Source: Streptococcus alactolyticus (lineage in GTDB: Bacteria; Bacillota; Bacilli; Lactobacillales; Streptococcaceae). Taken from it: a DNA stretch of 64,000 bases. Within the stretch, counting starts at the first letter, position 1, and each line of letters opens with the position of its first letter. The stretch spans positions 248,001 through 312,000 of the forward strand of contig NZ_JAAXMT010000005.1 in the NCBI RefSeq assembly GCF_012277075.1. The letters are read 5' to 3'. Shown here in pieces: positions 1,953 to 40,823 of the stretch. The translations under genes and the position numbers were made by a program. Below the pieces are notes generated by a model that was not told the origin of the DNA, made no database searches, and was given only the letters and a program-made list of their open reading frames with translations.

Positions 1953-2839
1953 GATTTGAATTTGTTGCAGACCGTCAAACCAAGGTCAAGACATTTCTAA
2001 AAAGCCATGATGTTTCAAAAGGGTTACTCGCCAAGGTTAAATTTAAAGGGGGGAATATTTGGGTTAACGGCGTTGAGCAAAATGCGATTTACCTCTTAGA
2101 AAAAGGAGATGTCGTCACGATTGAGATTCCTGACGAGCAAGAGCACGAAACCCTCATTCCCGTCAAACACCCTTTGGATATTGTCTATGAGGACGAACAT
2201 TTTCTAATCATCAATAAGCCGAGCGGCTTTGCTAGCATTCCAAGTGTTTTGCACTCTAACACCATCGCTAATTTTGTGAAGGCTTATTATATGGAAAATG
2301 ATTACCCTAATAAGCAGGTTCATATTGTGACCCGTTTGGATAAGGATACGAGTGGTTTGATGCTTTTTGCCAAACACGGCTACGCTCATGCCAGACTAGA
2401 TAAGCAGCTGCAAAGCAAGTCTATTGAAAAACGTTATTTGGCTTTGGTTTCTGGCAAGGGAGAATTGGAAGATAGCGGCGAGATTATTGCACCAATTGCT
2501 CGCTCAGATGACAGCATCATCACGCGCCGTGTTCACCCATCAGGCAAATACGCTCACACCAGCTATCAAGTGGTCGAACGTTTTGGTGATGTGGCCTTGG
2601 TGGACATTCGGCTGCACACAGGACGCACCCATCAAATTCGCGTGCATTTTGCGCACATTGGCTTTCCTTTGCTGGGAGATGATATGTATGGCGGTCGGAT
2701 GGATTTAGGCGTCACACGTCAAGCTTTGCATTGCCATTACTTGCGTTTTAGAAATCCTTATGACAATAAGGAGATTATCCAGAAAATCCCCTTGACAAAA
2801 GACTTTGAAAACGTTATCATTAAATTACAAAAAAATTAG
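1949..2839 (+). CDS. RluD-family RNA pseudouridine synthase
   Basis: A 296-aa protein with an N-terminal S4-like segment followed by the RluA/RluD catalytic domain. The catalytic aspartate sits in the [18 protein letters not shown] motif, and the RTHQIRVH motif follows in the C-terminal part. Family members isomerise specific uridines in large-subunit rRNA or tRNA; the exact target cannot be read from sequence. The start is taken as GTG 1949 ([10 protein letters not shown]), with AGGAG at 1934-1938, because this gives the normal family N-terminus. The GTG overlaps the nadK stop, consistent with translational coupling. Confidence 0.9.
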
Positions 2840-2856
2840 AATTGAAGGTTGTTTAT

Positions 2857-3852
2857 ATGGGAATTCGCTCTTTATTTGGCAGTTTGCGCGGAAAAATCAT
2901 TGGAAAAAACCTCAAGATTGTCTTTCCTGAAGGCAGTGACGAACGTGTTTTGCGTGCGGCAACACGTTTGAAATTTGAGGGATTAATAGAACCGATTATT
3001 CTAGGAGAACCTCAGGTCATTCGTGAAACACTTGACATGATTGGATTTGCTGATTTGAATTACATTATCATTAACCCAGAGGAATACGATGGCTTTGATG
3101 AGATGAAAGCAGCTTTTCTAGAAATTCGCAAAGACAAGGTAACACCTGAAGAAGCTGATGAACTCTTACACGATGTCAATTATTTTGGGGTTATGTTAGT
3201 TAAAATGGGGATTGCTAACGGGATGGTATCAGGTGCCATGCATTCAACGGCAGCTACGGTTCGACCAGCCCTTCAAATCATTAAAACTAAACCAGGCGTA
3301 TCAAGAACTTCAGGAGTATTTTTGATGAGCCGTGAGACAACCGAACAACGTTTGGTGTTTGCTGATTGTGCCATCAATGTAGACCCAAATGCCCAACAAC
3401 TCGCTGAGATTGCTGTCAACACAGCAGACACCGCTAAAATTTTCAACCTAGATCCTAAAGTAGCTATGCTTAGCTTCTCAACTAAGGGCAGCGCTAAAGC
3501 CCCCCAAGTGGAAAAAGTTCAAGAAGCTCTGCAATTGGCTAAGGAAGCACGACCTGACCTTGCTATTGACGGGGAATTACAATTTGACGCGGCTTTTGTG
3601 CCTGGAACTGCAGCTCTTAAAGCGCCAGGCAGTGACGTTGCAGGACAAGCAAATGTCTTTATCTTCCCAGACCTTCAATCAGGAAATATTGGTTACAAGA
3701 TTGCCCAACGTTTGGGAATGTTTGAGGCTATCGGGCCAATTCTCCAAGGTCTTAACCAACCTGTTAACGATTTATCTCGTGGCTCAAGTGCCGAAGATAT
3801 CTACAAATTAGCCATTATCACAGCTGCCCAAGCTATTGATGATGACGAATAA
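2857..3852 (+). CDS. pta: Phosphate acetyltransferase
   Basis: A 331-aa phosphotransacetylase interconverting acetyl-CoA and acetyl phosphate in the acetate overflow pathway with acetate kinase. The PTA_PTB fold is recognisable from the N-terminal IVFPEGSDERVLRAA through SGAMHSTAATVRP (CoA/phosphate region) to the C-terminal FPDLQSGNIGYKIAQR. The ATG at 2857 (MGIRSLFG) is chosen over an upstream TTG at 2842 because GAAGG lies just before it and the length matches streptococcal Pta. It is the last gene of the relQ-nadK-rluD-pta block and is followed at once by a hairpin terminator. Confidence 0.94.
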   Translation: MGIRSLFGSLRGKIIGKNLKIVFPEGSDERVLRAATRLKFEGLIEPIILGEPQVIRETLDMIGFADLNYIIINPEEYDGFDEMKAAFLEIRKDKVTPEEADELLHDVNYFGVMLVKMGIANGMVSGAMHSTAATVRPALQIIKTKPGVSRTSGVFLMSRETTEQRLVFADCAINVDPNAQQLAEIAVNTADTAKIFNLDPKVAMLSFSTKGSAKAPQVEKVQEALQLAKEARPDLAIDGELQFDAAFVPGTAALKAPGSDVAGQANVFIFPDLQSGNIGYKIAQRLGMFEAIGPILQGLNQPVNDLSRGSSAEDIYKLAIITAAQAIDDDE

Positions 3853-32936: not shown

Positions 32937-33032
32937 CTTACCTAAAAATAGATAATGCTAAATAAGAAAAAATATGTTACAATGAGCTATGATTACTGTT
33001 GGCGGTTTGCCGACGATATAGAAAGGGTAATA

Positions 33033-34595
33033 ATGACTGACAAATCTACTTTGACTGATGTTCAAAAAATCATTGTTCTTGATTATGGTAGCCAGTATAA
33101 CCAATTAATCGCACGTCGCATTCGTGAATTTGGTGTGTTCTCTGAATTGAGAAGCCACAAAATCACAGCCGATGAAGTTCGTGAAATCAATCCAATCGGA
33201 ATTGTGCTTTCTGGTGGTCCTAATTCTGTTTATGCGGACAATGCTTTTGGTATTGATGAAGCTATTTTTGAATTGGGTATTCCAATTCTTGGTATCTGTT
33301 ACGGGATGCAATTATTGACTGATAAGCTCGGCGGAAAAGTAGTGCCAGCTGGTCAAACAGGTAATAGCGAGTACGGCCAATCAACACTTCGCCTAAAAGC
33401 AGAATCAAAACTTTTTGCAGATACACCAAAAGAGCAAACGGTTTTGATGAGCCACGGTGATGCCGTTACAGAAATCCCAGCAGGTTTCCACTTGGTTGGT
33501 GATTCGGCTGATTGCCCTTACGCTGCTATTGAAAACACTGAGAAAAACATCTACGGTATCCAATTCCATCCAGAAGTGCGTCACTCTGTATATGGTAACG
33601 ACATTTTGCGCAACTTTGCCTTCAAAATTTGTGGGGCTAAAGGTGACTGGTCAATGGATAATTTCATCGACTTGCAAATCAACGAAATTCGCAAAAAAGT
33701 TGGTGACCGCAAAGTGCTTTTAGGACTTTCTGGTGGCGTGGACTCATCTGTTGTTGGAGTCCTTCTTCAACGCGCTATCGGCGACCAATTGACATGTATC
33801 TTCGTTGACCATGGTTTGCTTCGTAAAAACGAAGGTGACCAAGTTATGGAAATGCTTGGTGGTAAATTCGGACTTAACATCATCCGCGTTGACGCTTCAA
33901 AACGTTTCTTGGACTTATTGGCTGGCGTAGAAGACCCAGAGAAAAAACGTAAAATCATCGGAAATGAATTCGTTAGCGTCTTTGATGATGAAGCAAGCAA
34001 GCTAAAAGGTGTTGATTTCCTTGCACAAGGAACGCTATACACTGATGTCATCGAATCTGGTACAGATACTGCCCAAACCATCAAATCACACCACAACGTT
34101 GGTGGTCTTCCAGAAGACATGCAATTTGAACTTATCGAGCCATTGAATACCTTGTTCAAAGACGAAGTTCGTGCGCTTGGAACAGCTCTTGGTATGCCAG
34201 ACGAAGTGGTTTGGCGTCAACCATTCCCAGGACCTGGTTTGGCTATCCGTGTCATGGGTGAAATCACTGCAGAACGCTTGGAAACTGTCCGCGAATCAGA
34301 TGCCATCCTCCGTGAAGAAATCGCTAAAGCAGGTCTTGACCGTGACATTTGGCAATACTTCACTGTTAACACTGGCGTTCGTTCTGTTGGGGTTATGGGT
34401 GACGGTCGTACTTACGACTACACTATCGCTATCCGTGCCATCACATCAATTGACGGCATGACCGCAGACTTCGCTCGTATCCCTTGGGATGTCTTGCAAA
34501 AAATCTCTGTTCGTATCGTAAACGAAGTGGACCACGTTAACCGCATCGTCTACGATATTACAAGTAAACCACCTGCAACAGTAGAATGGGAATAA
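33033..34595 (+). CDS. guaA: GMP synthase (glutamine-hydrolysing)
   Basis: A 520-aa enzyme converting XMP to GMP with glutamine and ATP. The class I amidotransferase domain has the nucleophile Cys in GICYGMQ and the His/Glu pair in GIQFHPE. The ATP pyrophosphatase P-loop is LSGGVDSSV, near residue 235, followed by the C-terminal dimerisation domain ending ATVEWE. ATG 33033 with AGAAAGGG is preferred over an upstream in-frame ATG. A GTTGGC/GCCGAC hairpin sits in the leader just before the ribosome-binding site. Its 3' end is the apparent target of the adjacent integrative island. Confidence 0.97.
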
Positions 34596-34746: not shown

Positions 34747-34818
34747 TGATTCTCGCTAACACGTGTAAGGCGTTCAATGCTATAATTTAAGAGATAAACT
34801 ATTAAGGAGATGAGCAAA

Positions 34819-36768
34819 ATGGCAAAAATTGAACCGAAAATTTTTGACGAGTTGAAAACGGCTTTGGTATCTTTTGGCGACAAATATTTTGTCGGAGAAG
34901 TATTGAACCGTTCCAAACTCACGGATGATTTACGAAATTATGATGAAGCACTTTTGAGCAAGTTGTTTGAAGTAGATTTCATCAAGCAACATTTCATCAA
35001 GGAAGTGGCGGGGCAAAAGCTCTTTCAGATTGAACAACTTGAAGAAGCCGTTCTCTATAACGATTACTGGGACACAAGCTACACCAAATATGAAAATCGT
35101 GTTGGGTTAGCTTCAAAAGGGAAGTTCTTACAAGATAGCCAAGATGTCGTATTAGACTTCCCGTTCAAAGATGGTGTTCTCACTGCTTCTATGACAAAAG
35201 AAGATAATGAAGATGGTTATGATGATGCTTTTTTGAATGAAGTGATTTAGAAAGACGAGATTGACCGTTTGTTTGATAAGAAGGTTTTTGTAAATAGTAA
35301 AAAGTACGATGAAAATGGTGAGTCAGCTGTAACAGAATTTGATGAAGATAAAGATAACTTAATTATTAAGGGAAATAATTTACTAGCTTTACATGCAATC
35401 AAGGATAAGTACGCTGGTAAAGTGAAACTTATTTATATTGACCCTCCTTACAATACTAAAAATGATAGTTTTGTTTACAACGATAAATTTAGCCATAGCT
35501 CTTGGTTAGCATTTATGAAAAATAGACTTGAAATTTCTCATGACCTACTTTCAGATGATGGAATAATCTTCATTCAATCAGACGATAATGAACAAGCATA
35601 TCTCAAAATTTTAGCTTCTGATATTTTTGGGTCAAGTAACTTTGTCTCTACTGTTCCGGTGATTTCAAATTTAAAAGGGAATCAAGACCAATATGGTTTT
35701 GCAGGGACACATGAGTATTTGACAGTTTTTGTAAAAAACACTTCATTTGCGAAGTTTAATAATTTACTTATTACGGATGAATCAGTTGATGAGTGGGAAG
35801 AGGATGAAGTCGGATACTTTAAAAAAGGGGCTAATTTAAAAGCAACGGGTGTAAATGCACCAAGAACGAAACGACCAAATTTATATTATCCAATTTATAT
35901 TAGTAGCGCTGGTAAAATTCAATTTGAAAGACAATCAGAAAGTGACTTTGAGCTTCTACCAATAACAGATGGACAGGAAGTGTCGTGGAGATGGAAAAGA
36001 GAAACTATGAAGAGGTTAATTGATGATGTTATCCTCGTTAAAGGAACAGATGGTTACTCTATCTATAAAAAACAAAGACCAGAGCTTGGAGACCTACCAT
36101 CTAAAAAAGCAAAGTCAGTTTTTTACCGTCCCGAATATTCAAGTGGTAATGGTACAAATCAGTTAAAAACTTTATTTGGAGAGAAAAAATTTTCGTTTCC
36201 TAAACCTGAACATTTGATTTCAGACATCATTCAAATTGGTTCAAATGAAAATGATATTGTTCTTGATTTTTTCATGGGTTCTGCAACCACTCAAGCAGTC
36301 GCGATGAAAATGAACCGCAGATTTATCGGTATTGAACAAATGGACTATATTAACGAAGTATCTGTACCAAGACTACAAAAAGTAATCGCTGGGGAACAAG
36401 GTGGTATTTCTAAAGATGTAAATTGGCAAGGCGGGGGTTCATTTGTCTATACAGAACTAATGCCTAAGAATATGGGTTATCTACAAGATATTATTCATGC
36501 AAAAACATTAGATGACTTGAAAGTCGTGTACAATCGTATGTTAGAAGGAACAGATACTATGGAACCTGCTGATATTTCTTTCCGTGCTGACTTATCCAAG
36601 ATTGATTGGCTACAAGGATTTGACGAAAACAAGCGTCTACTTGTGAAGCTCCTTGATAAAAATGGGCTTTACTATAACTACTCTGAAATTGACGATAAAA
36701 ACGTCCGTGACTTAATCTCTGATGAAGATTACACCTTCAACAAGAATTTCTATGAAGGGGGTGACTAG
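34819..36768 (+). pseudogene. mod: Type III restriction-modification methyltransferase with in-frame stop
   Basis: A 650-codon frame encoding a beta-type adenine methyltransferase, interrupted by TAG 35248-35250 (codon 144) in FLNEVI-stop-KDEIDRLFDKK, where homologues have Glu; the frame continues unshifted to 36768. The N-terminal part (MAKIEPKIFDELKTALVSFG) is a conserved Mod segment. The second part keeps the catalytic motif DPPYN (near residue 208) and the SAM-binding DFFMGSATT (near 482), with a variable target-recognition region between. Mod methylates the recognition sequence and is required by Res. Re-initiation at TTG 35269 could give a truncated protein with both motifs, so loss of activity is likely but not certain. 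Confidence 0.85.
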
Positions 36769-36769
36769 C

Positions 36770-39556
36770 ATGGCAAAAGCAAAGAAAATACCTGCTAACG
36801 CTCGTCAATTTCCTCTTGTGGATCAGGCTGAACAAGCAGAAAAAGACTTGTTCAGTCAGCACCAAGGTTATATCATTCCTGAGTATATCAACGCAAACTT
36901 AATTCATACTTTGCGTGCCTATCAGGATAAAGCTATCCGAAATTATCACTATACCCAAACACAGATTAAACCAAACCCTCAACACGTTTTATTTAACATG
37001 GCGACAGGTTCAGGGAAAACCGACTTGATGGCAGGGCTTATCCTCTACCTTTATCAAGAGCATGGCTATCGCAACTTCTTGTTTACCGTCAATACCAACT
37101 CAGTCTTGATGAAAACAAAGGACAACTTGGTCAACGAAAATAGTGAAAAATACCTGTTCCAAGACAAAATTGAAATCGACGGCAAGCATATTTTCATTAA
37201 GCAAGTCGAACGATTTCCTAGAGTCCAACAAGACAACACCATTTACATTAAGCTATCTTCGGTTCAAAAAGTATCGGATGACCTGTTTGTCTTGAAAGAA
37301 AATACCATGGGGCTTTCAGACTATGAAAACCAACCTGTTGCAGTCTTAGCAGATGAAGCACACCATTATTCCGCAAGCACCAAGTCAGAGAAGGAAGCTG
37401 AAAATACTTGGGAATCAGCCATTAACAAAATCTTGCGTGCCCGTGATGATAAGGAACAAAAGAATCTCCTCCTTGAATTTACGGCAACAGTCGATTTTGA
37501 TAAAGAAGTCATATATAACAAGTATCGGGATAAGGTGGTCTACCGCTATCCGTTGAATCAATTCATGTTTGATGGCTATTCCAAGCAGGTTAAGCGAATT
37601 GAAACGTCCGCAAGCGACCAAGATAAAATGCTAAACGCGGTCTTGCTTTCGCAGTTTAGAAAATACTGTGCTTATGCCGAGGGTGTCACAGGAACATTTA
37701 AGCCCGTGATTATGTTTAAGTCAGCAAAAGTTGCGATATCACTGGAAGCCAACAAGGTCTTTAATGAGCTGATTCAAAATCTCAATGTTACGGATTTGCT
37801 CGCATTTATCAAGCGCCAACAAGTCCTAGATAGCAACGACAGCTCAGCTTTGGAATTGGCTTACAACTACTATCTCAAAAACGAAGATGACCTTGCAAAA
37901 ATCGTCCGTGAGATTAAGCAAGACTTTGACCCGAGAAACGTGTTAAATGCTAATGACACAAGCGGAAATATGCTTGAAAAGGGGCAGTATGAGGCACTCA
38001 ACACGCTCGAAAGCCCAAACAACCTCTATCGTGTGGTTTTTGCGGTCGCAAAACTGACAGAGGGATGGGATGTTCTCAATCTCTATGATATTGTTCGTAT
38101 TGAACAGGAAGCTGCGACAAACAAAAATGCCACAATGGTTGAAGCGCAACTCATTGGGCGTGGTGCAAGGTATTATCCATTTGAATTAGACGGTGTAAAA
38201 AGCTATCAACGTAGATTTGATGGCGATAGCTCAAACAAGCAATTGTTCCTAGAAACGTTGCACTACCACACGATGAATGAGCCACAATACCTTAAACAGC
38301 TTGTAGGCTCATTGAAGCAAATGGACTTGCCAACGGGGCAGGACAAGAAAAATCCACCAATTGAAATCAAGCTTAAGCCTGCTTTCAAGAAAACTGATAC
38401 CTATAAGACGGGAAAAATCTACTACAACGAAGCTGAGGATGTGGCAGATGATTGGTTTGATTCCATTCAGAAATACGGAATCACACACAAGACGGACATT
38501 CAAAGAAGTCTGAATTATGGTACTCGTGAAGTGTCTTATCAAGCAACAGTCGCATTGACTGAGACAAAACAAGTCCATGTTGATAGGTTTGATGACCGCT
38601 ATATTAAGAAAGCCATTCACCGCCTTGAGTTTTATCAATTTGATAACTTGAAAAAGTATCTGCCATTACTTGAATCCATGAAAGACTTCATTTATGGAGA
38701 AAATTGGCTCAACGCAAGTAAGTTGAAACTTTTCCTGACCGTTCCAAAAGAATACAAGTCAACAGATATTACGGCAGACGATATTTTGAAAGTCACCATT
38801 GACCTTTTGAAAGAGTACGAAGTCAAATTCAAGTCTGGCTACGTCAAGAAACGTGGTACAAACAAATTTGTTGGTTATCCAATTAGCGAGTATCTGACCA
38901 ACTATAATAAGCGAGTACCTGAGTATGACACGGCAAACCTCTTGAATGAAACCACTCAAAAAGTTGCAGTTTACGATATGGCTGAGGACTTCTATGTCTA
39001 TGACCGTGCTATCGTCAACAAGTTGGAATTTGACCTCATCACACGTATTCAAGCCCATGTGAATGAGCTAAAAGCCAAATATAACAAGGCAGTTTACTTG
39101 TTCCGCATGGACGAGAATATGCACCGTGAGTCAGCTAAGAGCGAAAAGCTCAAGCTCCATCAATATGGCTCACGGATCAATCGAGCTGGCGAAATTGTAG
39201 ATATGCACTTGCAGGGCTTCCAACCCGACTTCATCTTGTTCCTTGAAGATAGTGACTTTTACTTCCAAATATTCATTGAACCAAAAGGCATGAGTGGCGA
39301 TAGATTCGTAAGCGAGCTATGGAAGCAGGACTTGTTGCTCTATATGACCGACCATCAAGCAGAGATGGAATTTGAAGATGGTGTCGATAACGTCAAGATT
39401 AGCGGTCTGAAATTCTTTACCGCAAAAGACGGCCAAAACACAATCCCTGAATTGATGGCAATGTCTGGTGTGACCTATCAGAAACCTAATGAACAGATAG
39501 ATTTATTGATGGTAGCAGACCCTTCTACTGATGTAATAATCGAGGAGGATGAGTGA
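36770..39556 (+). CDS. res: Type III restriction enzyme, Res subunit
   Basis: A 928-aa translocase-endonuclease. The helicase core starts with Walker A NMATGSGKT near residue 80, the DEAH-type box VLADEAHH near 195, and motif VI EAQLIGRGARYY around 460. The C-terminal nuclease PD-ExK pattern is visible as QPDFILF and IFIEPKG near residues 818-840. It would cleave DNA with unmethylated head-to-head sites in complex with Mod. The ATG at 36770 follows the mod stop by 1 nt, with GAAGGGGGTG as ribosome-binding site. Res looks intact although its modification partner is interrupted. Confidence 0.93.
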   Translation: MAKAKKIPANARQFPLVDQAEQAEKDLFSQHQGYIIPEYINANLIHTLRAYQDKAIRNYHYTQTQIKPNPQHVLFNMATGSGKTDLMAGLILYLYQEHGYRNFLFTVNTNSVLMKTKDNLVNENSEKYLFQDKIEIDGKHIFIKQVERFPRVQQDNTIYIKLSSVQKVSDDLFVLKENTMGLSDYENQPVAVLADEAHHYSASTKSEKEAENTWESAINKILRARDDKEQKNLLLEFTATVDFDKEVIYNKYRDKVVYRYPLNQFMFDGYSKQVKRIETSASDQDKMLNAVLLSQFRKYCAYAEGVTGTFKPVIMFKSAKVAISLEANKVFNELIQNLNVTDLLAFIKRQQVLDSNDSSALELAYNYYLKNEDDLAKIVREIKQDFDPRNVLNANDTSGNMLEKGQYEALNTLESPNNLYRVVFAVAKLTEGWDVLNLYDIVRIEQEAATNKNATMVEAQLIGRGARYYPFELDGVKSYQRRFDGDSSNKQLFLETLHYHTMNEPQYLKQLVGSLKQMDLPTGQDKKNPPIEIKLKPAFKKTDTYKTGKIYYNEAEDVADDWFDSIQKYGITHKTDIQRSLNYGTREVSYQATVALTETKQVHVDRFDDRYIKKAIHRLEFYQFDNLKKYLPLLESMKDFIYGENWLNASKLKLFLTVPKEYKSTDITADDILKVTIDLLKEYEVKFKSGYVKKRGTNKFVGYPISEYLTNYNKRVPEYDTANLLNETTQKVAVYDMAEDFYVYDRAIVNKLEFDLITRIQAHVNELKAKYNKAVYLFRMDENMHRESAKSEKLKLHQYGSRINRAGEIVDMHLQGFQPDFILFLEDSDFYFQIFIEPKGMSGDRFVSELWKQDLLLYMTDHQAEMEFEDGVDNVKISGLKFFTAKDGQNTIPELMAMSGVTYQKPNEQIDLLMVADPSTDVIIEEDE

Positions 39557-39557
39557 A

Positions 39558-40334
39558 ATGCCAAAGAAAAGTGTGAATTCACGACCCTATCTCAAAACTT
39601 GTGAGTTGATTTATCAATTGACTTCACAAAGAATTGTCGAAAAATATCGTAAATGGAAAGAAGATAACCTAAAATATAATACCCAATCTCAGTTTTTTCC
39701 CGAGGACCGCAAGTTAGTTAGTAGAGTACTAAACTGCATAAGGACAAAAAACAATCCGTACCTGATTACTCCAAGAATTCAGGAAGCAATCATGGAGAAT
39801 CTCGATTTTACAGACGTAAATGAACTTTATTGGTGGGAAGATATTTCCGAGTATTTTCAACAGTTTTTTACGATATTACTACTAGAAATTCAAGAATATA
39901 AAGATTACACCAAATTTTGGATAGGAATTCCGCTTTCTACTGAGTCCGAGATAACCAAGTTTTATTTAGAAAATCAGGTTCCTATTTTAGAAATCGATGA
40001 ATCATATAACCAAGAATATGAGGCATTGATTGACCAATTTATCAACTTCACTTTTAACAAAATTAGTTATTTCGAGTTTGAATCTGCCAAAAGACTTGGG
40101 TATTATCGTGAGGATGAGTTAGTGTATAGAACGAAGAGAAAGCCTAATAAACCTAAAAAGGATGAAGAGGTTGATGAGACAAAGGTGGATAAAAAGGCTA
40201 AAGAGTACAAAAATGAAGTACTAACATTTATCGAATTACCAAAGAAATTAGATATTTTTGTTGAAAAAGTTTTTGTTCCATTCATTAGCTCAATTTGTCT
40301 AGGTAAACGATTAGAATTACATATCAAACGCTAA
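39558..40334 (+). CDS. Unrecognised third gene of the type III RM operon
   Basis: A 258-aa soluble protein overlapping no known family I can name. It begins MPKKSVNSRPYLKTCELIYQL, is rich in Tyr, Glu, Lys and aromatic residues, and has a lysine/acid-rich linker around residues 195-220 (RTKRKPNKPKKDEEVDE), then a final hydrophobic stretch (VFVPFISSICLG). There are no signal peptide or enzyme motifs I can identify. ATG 39558 is set by AGGAGG at 39543-39548; the gene begins 1 nt after res and ends at a terminator, so it is co-transcribed with mod and res. It could be an accessory or safety factor for the RM system, or an independent defence protein. Confidence 0.8.
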   Translation: MPKKSVNSRPYLKTCELIYQLTSQRIVEKYRKWKEDNLKYNTQSQFFPEDRKLVSRVLNCIRTKNNPYLITPRIQEAIMENLDFTDVNELYWWEDISEYFQQFFTILLLEIQEYKDYTKFWIGIPLSTESEITKFYLENQVPILEIDESYNQEYEALIDQFINFTFNKISYFEFESAKRLGYYREDELVYRTKRKPNKPKKDEEVDETKVDKKAKEYKNEVLTFIELPKKLDIFVEKVFVPFISSICLGKRLELHIKR

Positions 40335-40340
40335 AAGTAT

Positions 40341-40372
40341 AGACTCTCACTATAAAGGGGGGGGTCTTTTTT
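40341..40372 (+). terminator. Terminator of the RM operon
   Basis: AGACTCTC pairs with GGGGGTCT, with G-U pairs, followed by six T. Confidence 0.6.
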
Positions 40373-40465
40373 GCTGAAACATTTTTTTACCACCCCACCC
40401 TTACACTTTGTGAGTGCTTTAATATCCTTATCAAGAGCAGCAAATCTTGATGGTAGGCGGTCAGG

Positions 40466-40750
40466 TTGGCGGGTGTTCCCGTGATTCAAGCCAAAGGGCT
40501 AAGACATAGTCATGTTAGCTTTCTAATTAATGAAATCAATGCTTCTGTCTTGATTGTTTCCAAACGACTCGGGCACAGCTCGCCAGAAATCACGCTCAAG
40601 CATTATGCACACTTGTGGCGAGGGATTGATGATGGTGTCGCTGAATCTATGGCGGGGATTATCACAATATCAACCGCACCAAGTAAACAATTTGCCTTCA
40701 CGGGCAATCAATCCGTGAAACAATTGTCTCCAGAACTGTCTCCAAAATAG
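40466..40750 (+). pseudogene. C-terminal fragment of a tyrosine integrase
   Basis: The frame lacks a proper start and corresponds to the last 90-95 residues of a phage/ICE-type tyrosine recombinase. GLRHSHVSFLI carries the conserved HxLRH-type Arg/His box, RLGHSSPEITLKHYAHL contains the second His and the catalytic Tyr. The N-terminal and core domains, including the first catalytic Arg, are absent. Located beside the right att-like repeat, it identifies the guaA-linked region as a decayed integrative element that can no longer excise itself. Confidence 0.85.
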
Positions 40751-40807
40751 TGGAGACACCTTACAAACGCAATAACAACGGGCTTTTCAAAGCCAAACCT
40801 ACTCATT

Positions 40808-40823
40808 GAATGGGAGTAATAAA
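40808..40823 (+). other. Right att-like site of the guaA island
   Basis: GAATGGGAGTAATAAA resembles the 3' end of guaA (34584-34596). Just beyond it lies a strong terminator that may originally have belonged to guaA. Confidence 0.5.

Follow-up and report, generated by a model that had tools for sequence, protein, structure and literature searches.

Background

The closest described relatives of the locus treated here are the integrative and mobilizable elements (IMEs) of streptococci. guaA is a published insertion site of such elements (in a passage of PMC5357655), and passages of two reports describe streptococcal IMEs with guaA sites, TcpA and relaxases of PF01719 (PMC5357655; PMC12479173). 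Restriction-modification (RM) systems have been published as IME cargo, and in S. salivarius type III RM is found exclusively on IMEs according to a passage of PMC7563491. As for regulation, the relevant part of a review (PMC5704250) has known IMEs kept quiet by regulators of a helper element, the helper-borne SetCD and AcaCD; this counts against the reading preferred below, which gives the element a regulator of its own. Figures and supplements aside, the main-text passages of the IME literature searched name no such boundary gene as the one described here.

The gene in question was found in a stretch of 64,000 nucleotides from Streptococcus alactolyticus (contig NZ_JAAXMT010000005.1, positions 248,001 to 312,000), called the window below. 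It follows a type III mod-res pair as a third gene (Table 1), and an earlier note had taken it for a possible component or accessory of that RM system. We lean towards seeing it as a backbone gene of an IME at guaA, not as type III RM cargo, and its product as probably a DNA-binding boundary regulator on which selection is relaxed in this copy.

Table 1. Features of the guaA locus in the window, in order of position
Feature	Positions	Strand	Evidence and remarks
guaA (GMP synthase), where the element is inserted	32955-34595	+	ORF; named from its translation
Left att-like repeat GAATGGGAATAA	34584-34595	+	Final guaA codons
Type III mod	34810-36768	+	PF12564 in 34810-35247; PF01555 in 35269-36765; PADLOC MTase_III
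Type III res	36722-39556, likely start 36764	+	PF04851; PADLOC REase_III, 7.6e-187
Boundary-protein ORF (third gene)	39558-40334	+	258 codons plus stop; 258 aa; shared N-terminal region at about residues 14-105
Spacer	40335-40469	+	3' of the third gene and before the transfer genes in fuller elements
Terminator-like hairpin, then T run	40344-40361	+	5-pair hairpin; scan
Tyrosine integrase 3' fragment	40466-40750	+	
Right att-like repeat GAATGGGAGTAA	40808-40819	+	

The third gene and the mod-res genes upstream

The ORF of 258 aa and its link to res were confirmed, the res stop at 39556 leaving a gap of 1 nt. By eye, a ribosome site (GAGGAGG) lies inside the end of res, 9 nt 5' of the ATG at 39558; the ORF as called mechanically starts at 39549, also an in-frame ATG. 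The gene occurs once in its own genome. Copies are found at the same place in the genomes of two other species (91% identical, and 86% identical with a stop), and more distant homologues abound, so that it is not a chance ORF. The earlier description of a gene fused into an RM operon holds for its adjacency to mod-res, while no fusion is present. The terminator assigned to res and the third gene together is plausible but weak, since the hairpin has five pairs and the scan of the region gave seven such sites against 4.6 +/- 2.0 in shuffles, which is not clearly above the shuffles.

Like type III RM systems, the window has a Mod with PF12564 and PF01555 and a Res with PF04851. Unlike them, its mod carries an in-frame stop: a TAG at 35248 splits the gene, so that the domains of the pair are present but mod is not intact. 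Barring readthrough of the TAG or an error of sequencing, the strain's type III RM system is probably inactive. To our knowledge, the third gene is no standard component of type III RM. In a related mod frame (L104, positions 2341-3832, minus strand), the first residues hold tandem SRAEQ-type repeats, and these would suggest repeat-tuned or phase-variable modification.

A decayed element at guaA

The ORF upstream of mod is presumably guaA, as named from its translation. Between the att-like repeats at 34584 and 40808, the window keeps the left part of an element and a 3' fragment of its integrase, as in elements that a tyrosine integrase has inserted at the 3' end of guaA with direct repeats. 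Genes for a relaxase and a coupling protein are absent from this element. Two fuller elements, L061 and L062, have the order guaA-mod-res-gene-small gene-TcpA-like-hypothetical-Rep-integrase, with a transposase-like gene (by eye) after the boundary gene in L061. Pfam identifies Rep of L061 as PF01719 and its integrase as PF00589. The TcpA-like protein of L061 is a P-loop ATPase, with DUF87 above the cut-off and FtsK_SpoIIIE below it (19.5 of 24 bits). The Rep-like ORF of L062 is only 106 aa long. We take the small gene to be DUF961-like; the three copies tested (L061, L064 and L065) had no Pfam match.

The window spacer (40335-40469) is 97% identical to L061 13146-13280 and to L062 9748-9883, and window positions 40462-40818 are 95% identical to L061 17216-17572, which lies within and past the 422-aa integrase (PF00589). 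From these two matches, about 3.9 kb is missing in the window relative to L061. The counterpart of the att-like repeat in L062, GAGTGGGAATAA, is found at both ends of the element; the exact left 12-mer occurs in L061 at the guaA end only. Judging from these sequence comparisons, the window holds the remnant of an IME at the 3' end of guaA, without transfer genes. With the streptococcal guaA IMEs in the published passages (PMC5357655; PMC12479173), L061 has in common the guaA 3' site, the TcpA-like protein, the PF01719 Rep and the tyrosine integrase, and L062 and the window have att-like repeats at both ends. The window element differs in having lost everything from after the boundary-gene spacer to the middle of the integrase.

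Selection on the boundary gene

Of the four guaA loci with type III RM, two carry an intact boundary gene, a third has a stop in it and the fourth a truncated copy. The window and L061 copies differ by 5 synonymous and 24 nonsynonymous changes (dN/dS 1.14), and res of the same two loci gives a dN/dS of 0.056 (0.073-0.108 in other res pairs; four copies). Given a true ratio of 0.25, at least 24 nonsynonymous changes among 29 have P 4.5e-4, and given one of 0.5, P 0.058, so a ratio of 0.5 is compatible with the counts. These values come from three copies of the boundary gene, one of them broken, and the test is confined to the window-L061 pair; dN/dS is 0.94 for window-L062 and 0.87 for L061-L062, the L062 copy having frameshifts and a stop. 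Twelve other pairs of the family were compared. Six with dS below 1 gave 0.14-0.29, four with dS of 1.3-2.2 gave 0.16-0.30, and the remaining two gave 0.51 in one case and no measurable value in the other. Therefore, the family is constrained, whereas the window copy is not measurably under purifying selection. Since dS is 0.034 in the boundary gene and 0.15 in res, the region may be mosaic.

Distribution and genomic context of the family

With the window protein as query (284 genomes of the genus, E 0.01), 14 genomes had a match, including the window's own. One of these, in L015, is a DUF1033 protein and was rejected as a chance match. Two full-length copies and one fragment of 56 codons adjoin res. 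A profile of ten sequences (E 0.001) found the family in 28 of the 284 genomes of the genus and, in the order, in 20 of 395 genomes, which belong to 11 of 80 genera. Of 39 regions fetched, 33 have a family ORF, and the window itself is not among these 33. The regions left uncounted, having no family ORF, are L082, L085, L086, L097 and L099, plus L098 (a region at other coordinates); two weaker second matches (G069:C13 and G042:C7) are outside the fetched set.

An integrase and TcpA-like or Rep genes are nearby in 31 of the 33 loci, a TcpA-like gene in 30 and the small gene in 29; these classes (TcpA, Rep, Int and small gene) were grown by phmmer from seeds chosen by eye, and the Pfam check covered the L061 and L064 genes and the L065 small gene. 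The two exceptions are L063, where the copy is truncated, and L074. In 25 of the 31 the boundary gene and the transfer operon diverge, and in the other 6 the gene is co-directional just upstream of the operon, as for a regulator at the head of an operon. Ten of the 33 loci adjoin guaA, a neighbour identified by eye, as were the transposases and surface proteins. Outside RM, the closest homologue is L064 (36% identity), which is also at guaA; its order is gene-small gene-TcpA-like-Rep-Int, with no mod-res.

RM genes adjoin the family member, on the side away from the transfer genes, in 18 of the 33 loci and are absent as neighbours in 15. They belong to type III in L061, L062, L063, L088, L089 and L094, consist of type II methylases and/or nucleases in L069, L070, L078, L081, L087, L092 and L096, are of type IIG in L071, L079 and L080 (the last assigned by likeness to that of L079), and are single-chain type I/IIG in L090 and L091 (both scanned in part). 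Other defence-type matches about 3 kb off, PDC-S60 in L077 and RmrA in L083, were not counted as RM. Of the earlier note, the linkage to mod-res holds, and the family is often found beside RM genes of some type, type III accounting for only 6 of 33 loci. By the same counts, homologues are mostly outside RM if only type III is considered (27/33) but not if RM of any kind is (15/33). A component or accessory of type III RM is not what these loci indicate, since 6 of 33 adjoin type III RM and 31 of 33 an IME transfer module. A role in the cargo retains some probability from the 18 loci with RM genes, and this counts against our preferred reading; RM cargo is common on IMEs generally (in a passage of PMC7563491), so the adjacency seen here lacks a proper baseline.

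Some family loci differ in the boundary gene itself. Between L075 (8358-11097) and L076 (9340-11623) the gene is inverted, while the flanks are 93-96% identical and in the same orientation; no long inverted repeat was observed on its flanks. L065 (9401-10234) and L066 (9626-10459) have a dS of 0.18 in the boundary gene and of up to 0.004 in the TcpA-like, Rep and integrase genes, as if the boundary gene had been exchanged on its own. In seven loci (L065, L066, L067, L068, L072, L075 and L076) an XRE regulator and a large surface protein accompany the family member on the cargo side, and by eye the surface protein is surface-exclusion-like.

mod-res without the gene

A tblastn search of plasmids gave 39 records (Enterococcus 36, Carnobacterium 2, Lactococcus 1), none of which covers 80% of the protein; among the 20 of the 39 matches listed, all cover residues 226-258. 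In five loci (L002, L017, L018, L130 and L132) the end of res is followed by the ATG of the boundary gene and a remnant of 32 codons, and L003 looks alike. This in-frame remnant, with its ribosome site, is almost unchanged across Enterococcus, Carnobacterium and Lactococcus DNA, and it is consistent with an in-frame deletion between two CCAAAGAAA repeats. Both mod and res are annotated in L017 and L130; L132 has an annotated mod and an unannotated match to res, and L002 and L018 match only about 0.25 kb at the end of res. One Lactococcus and one Carnobacterium plasmid retain a close mod-res, with Res 95-97% identical and the gene cut to 32 codons. Downstream of more distant relatives of res (about 52% identity; L105-L108 and L110), no boundary gene was seen by eye. 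Plasmid searches with three homologues gave no match.

These data bear on the idea that the protein regulates or guards RM cargo, e.g., by delaying restriction or balancing Mod and Res on entry to a new cell, independently of the transfer genes. The adjoining RM systems (types III, II, IIG and single-chain type I/IIG) would fit such a role, as would the orders gene-mod-res, in one direction, in L089 and L094 and mod-res-gene in L061, L062 and L088. We nevertheless hold it to be unlikely, because the RM types are unrelated and 15 of the 33 loci have no RM neighbour, because plasmid mod-res persists with 32 codons of the gene, and because the window copy shows no measurable constraint while res is constrained.

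The same slot in other IMEs

For the converse comparison, a TcpA profile was run and had matches in 95 of 157 genomes of the genus, and 20 IME loci were picked from these matches, each without an earlier family match at the locus. The set is partly redundant (L184-L187 are alike, as are L202/L203 and L197/L200/L201). The family occupies the slot in 6 of the 20 (L188, L190, L195, L198, L202 and L203; profile E below 1e-3) and is missing from it in 14. Proteins above the cut-off for Pfam HTH_3, unrelated to the family, are found there in three (L191, L193 and L194), and a 478-aa protein in three more (L197, L200 and L201), the L197 copy having no match in a Pfam scan; the remaining 8 have something else or nothing clear. 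Hence in 11 of the 20 the slot lacks both the family and an HTH protein confirmed by Pfam, which counts against a regulator. A different small gene of L193 reaches E 1e-3 as well. A second small gene of 161-176 aa, HTH-like by eye, adjoins the DUF961-like gene in L188 (4395-4880), L194 (7316-7801) and L195 (5216-5746).

An accessory of the relaxosome or of replication, which would bind oriT or the origin and help Rep and the coupling protein, would also be expected next to the small gene, the TcpA-like gene and Rep, and the lack of a clear HTH domain agrees with it. Such a gene is expected inside the transfer operon, whereas the family is divergent from it in 25 of 31 loci and is missing from the slot in 14 of the 20 comparison IMEs; we regard this role as quite unlikely.

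Domains and fold

In line with the earlier note, which recognised no family, the protein could be placed in no known one: Pfam (best E 0.15), PHROGs (best E 0.068), NCBIfam, PADLOC and PDB all lacked a significant match. Seven homologues had no PADLOC match either, a phage search with the window protein gave no match, and IMG/VR scans found no homologue. Weak PDB matches of the family profiles A1/A2 (ribonucleotide reductase, E 0.011; an HTH protein, E 0.47) were taken as chance, and a single-sequence AlphaFold model with mean pLDDT 34 was discarded. What the family shares is an N-terminal region of about 100 residues, where many members have NPYLxTP and W-G motifs; the C-terminal parts are variable.

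This combination of a common N-terminal region with variable C-terminal parts, beside defence genes, would suit a separate defence or exclusion effector, directed, e.g., against competing elements or phages. It is an improbable role, considering that neither the gene nor the seven homologues match PADLOC and that the family tracks the transfer module, not one cargo type.

Cro/C1 (XRE) HTH regulators include the ImmR-like regulators of elements. By eye the N-terminal region resembles a clear cro/C1 HTH; a narrow XRE set did not bear this out (P 0.17, probability 0.4%), and a broader one did so only weakly. With the broader cro/C1 set, hhalign gives a collinear, weak match to the N-terminal profile (P 0.016, probability 2.8%), and five non-HTH controls give P 0.13-0.84. 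The 478-aa slot protein matches the family at P 0.0014-0.0015 (probability 18%) and XRE HTH at P 3.6e-4 (probability 37%), a weak bridge between the two. Slot proteins of 358 aa and 450 aa clearly belong to the family (probabilities 97 and 98%) and have no Pfam HTH. The family is thus like the XRE regulators in its weak collinear alignment and in a slot that true HTH_3 proteins occupy in L191, L193 and L194. It differs in the low hhalign probability, in having no match to Pfam HTH models (third gene, seven homologues and five further members, i.e., 12 members besides the gene) and in having none between its profile and the true HTH proteins of the slot (P 0.39-0.52), which themselves match XRE at 95%.

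Conclusions

In small mobile elements, the family is found where the cargo meets the transfer genes, and an element control gene is therefore likelier than a part of a restriction enzyme. From its position and orientation, the most likely function is that of a boundary regulator, with DNA binding putative. On one side of the family lies variable cargo, often RM, and on the other a transfer module made up of the small gene, the genes of a TcpA-like coupling protein and an RCR-type Rep/relaxase, and the integrase. The boundary protein may set the expression of the adjacent transfer operon, and perhaps also of the cargo on its other side, and would keep the element quiet until transfer; we infer DNA binding, repression and the choice of promoter controlled. 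With the transfer module deleted in the window, the gene would have lost its target, ride at the end of the mod-res operon and drift.

Going further, the family might be an undescribed class of IME regulators across the order, whose N-terminal region reads a site at the cargo/transfer junction and couples the expression of swappable RM or defence cargo to transfer, unrelated RM types being plugged in beside it. This wider proposal we consider doubtful.

The analysis takes the third gene out of the role of an RM accessory and places it in the control region of mobile elements of a common class. If this is true, a boundary regulator of the element's own would be a testable addition to the helper-borne regulators covered in the review passage cited above (PMC5704250). 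The slot also marks a site where defence cargo is exchanged, and may be used for finding further defence systems.
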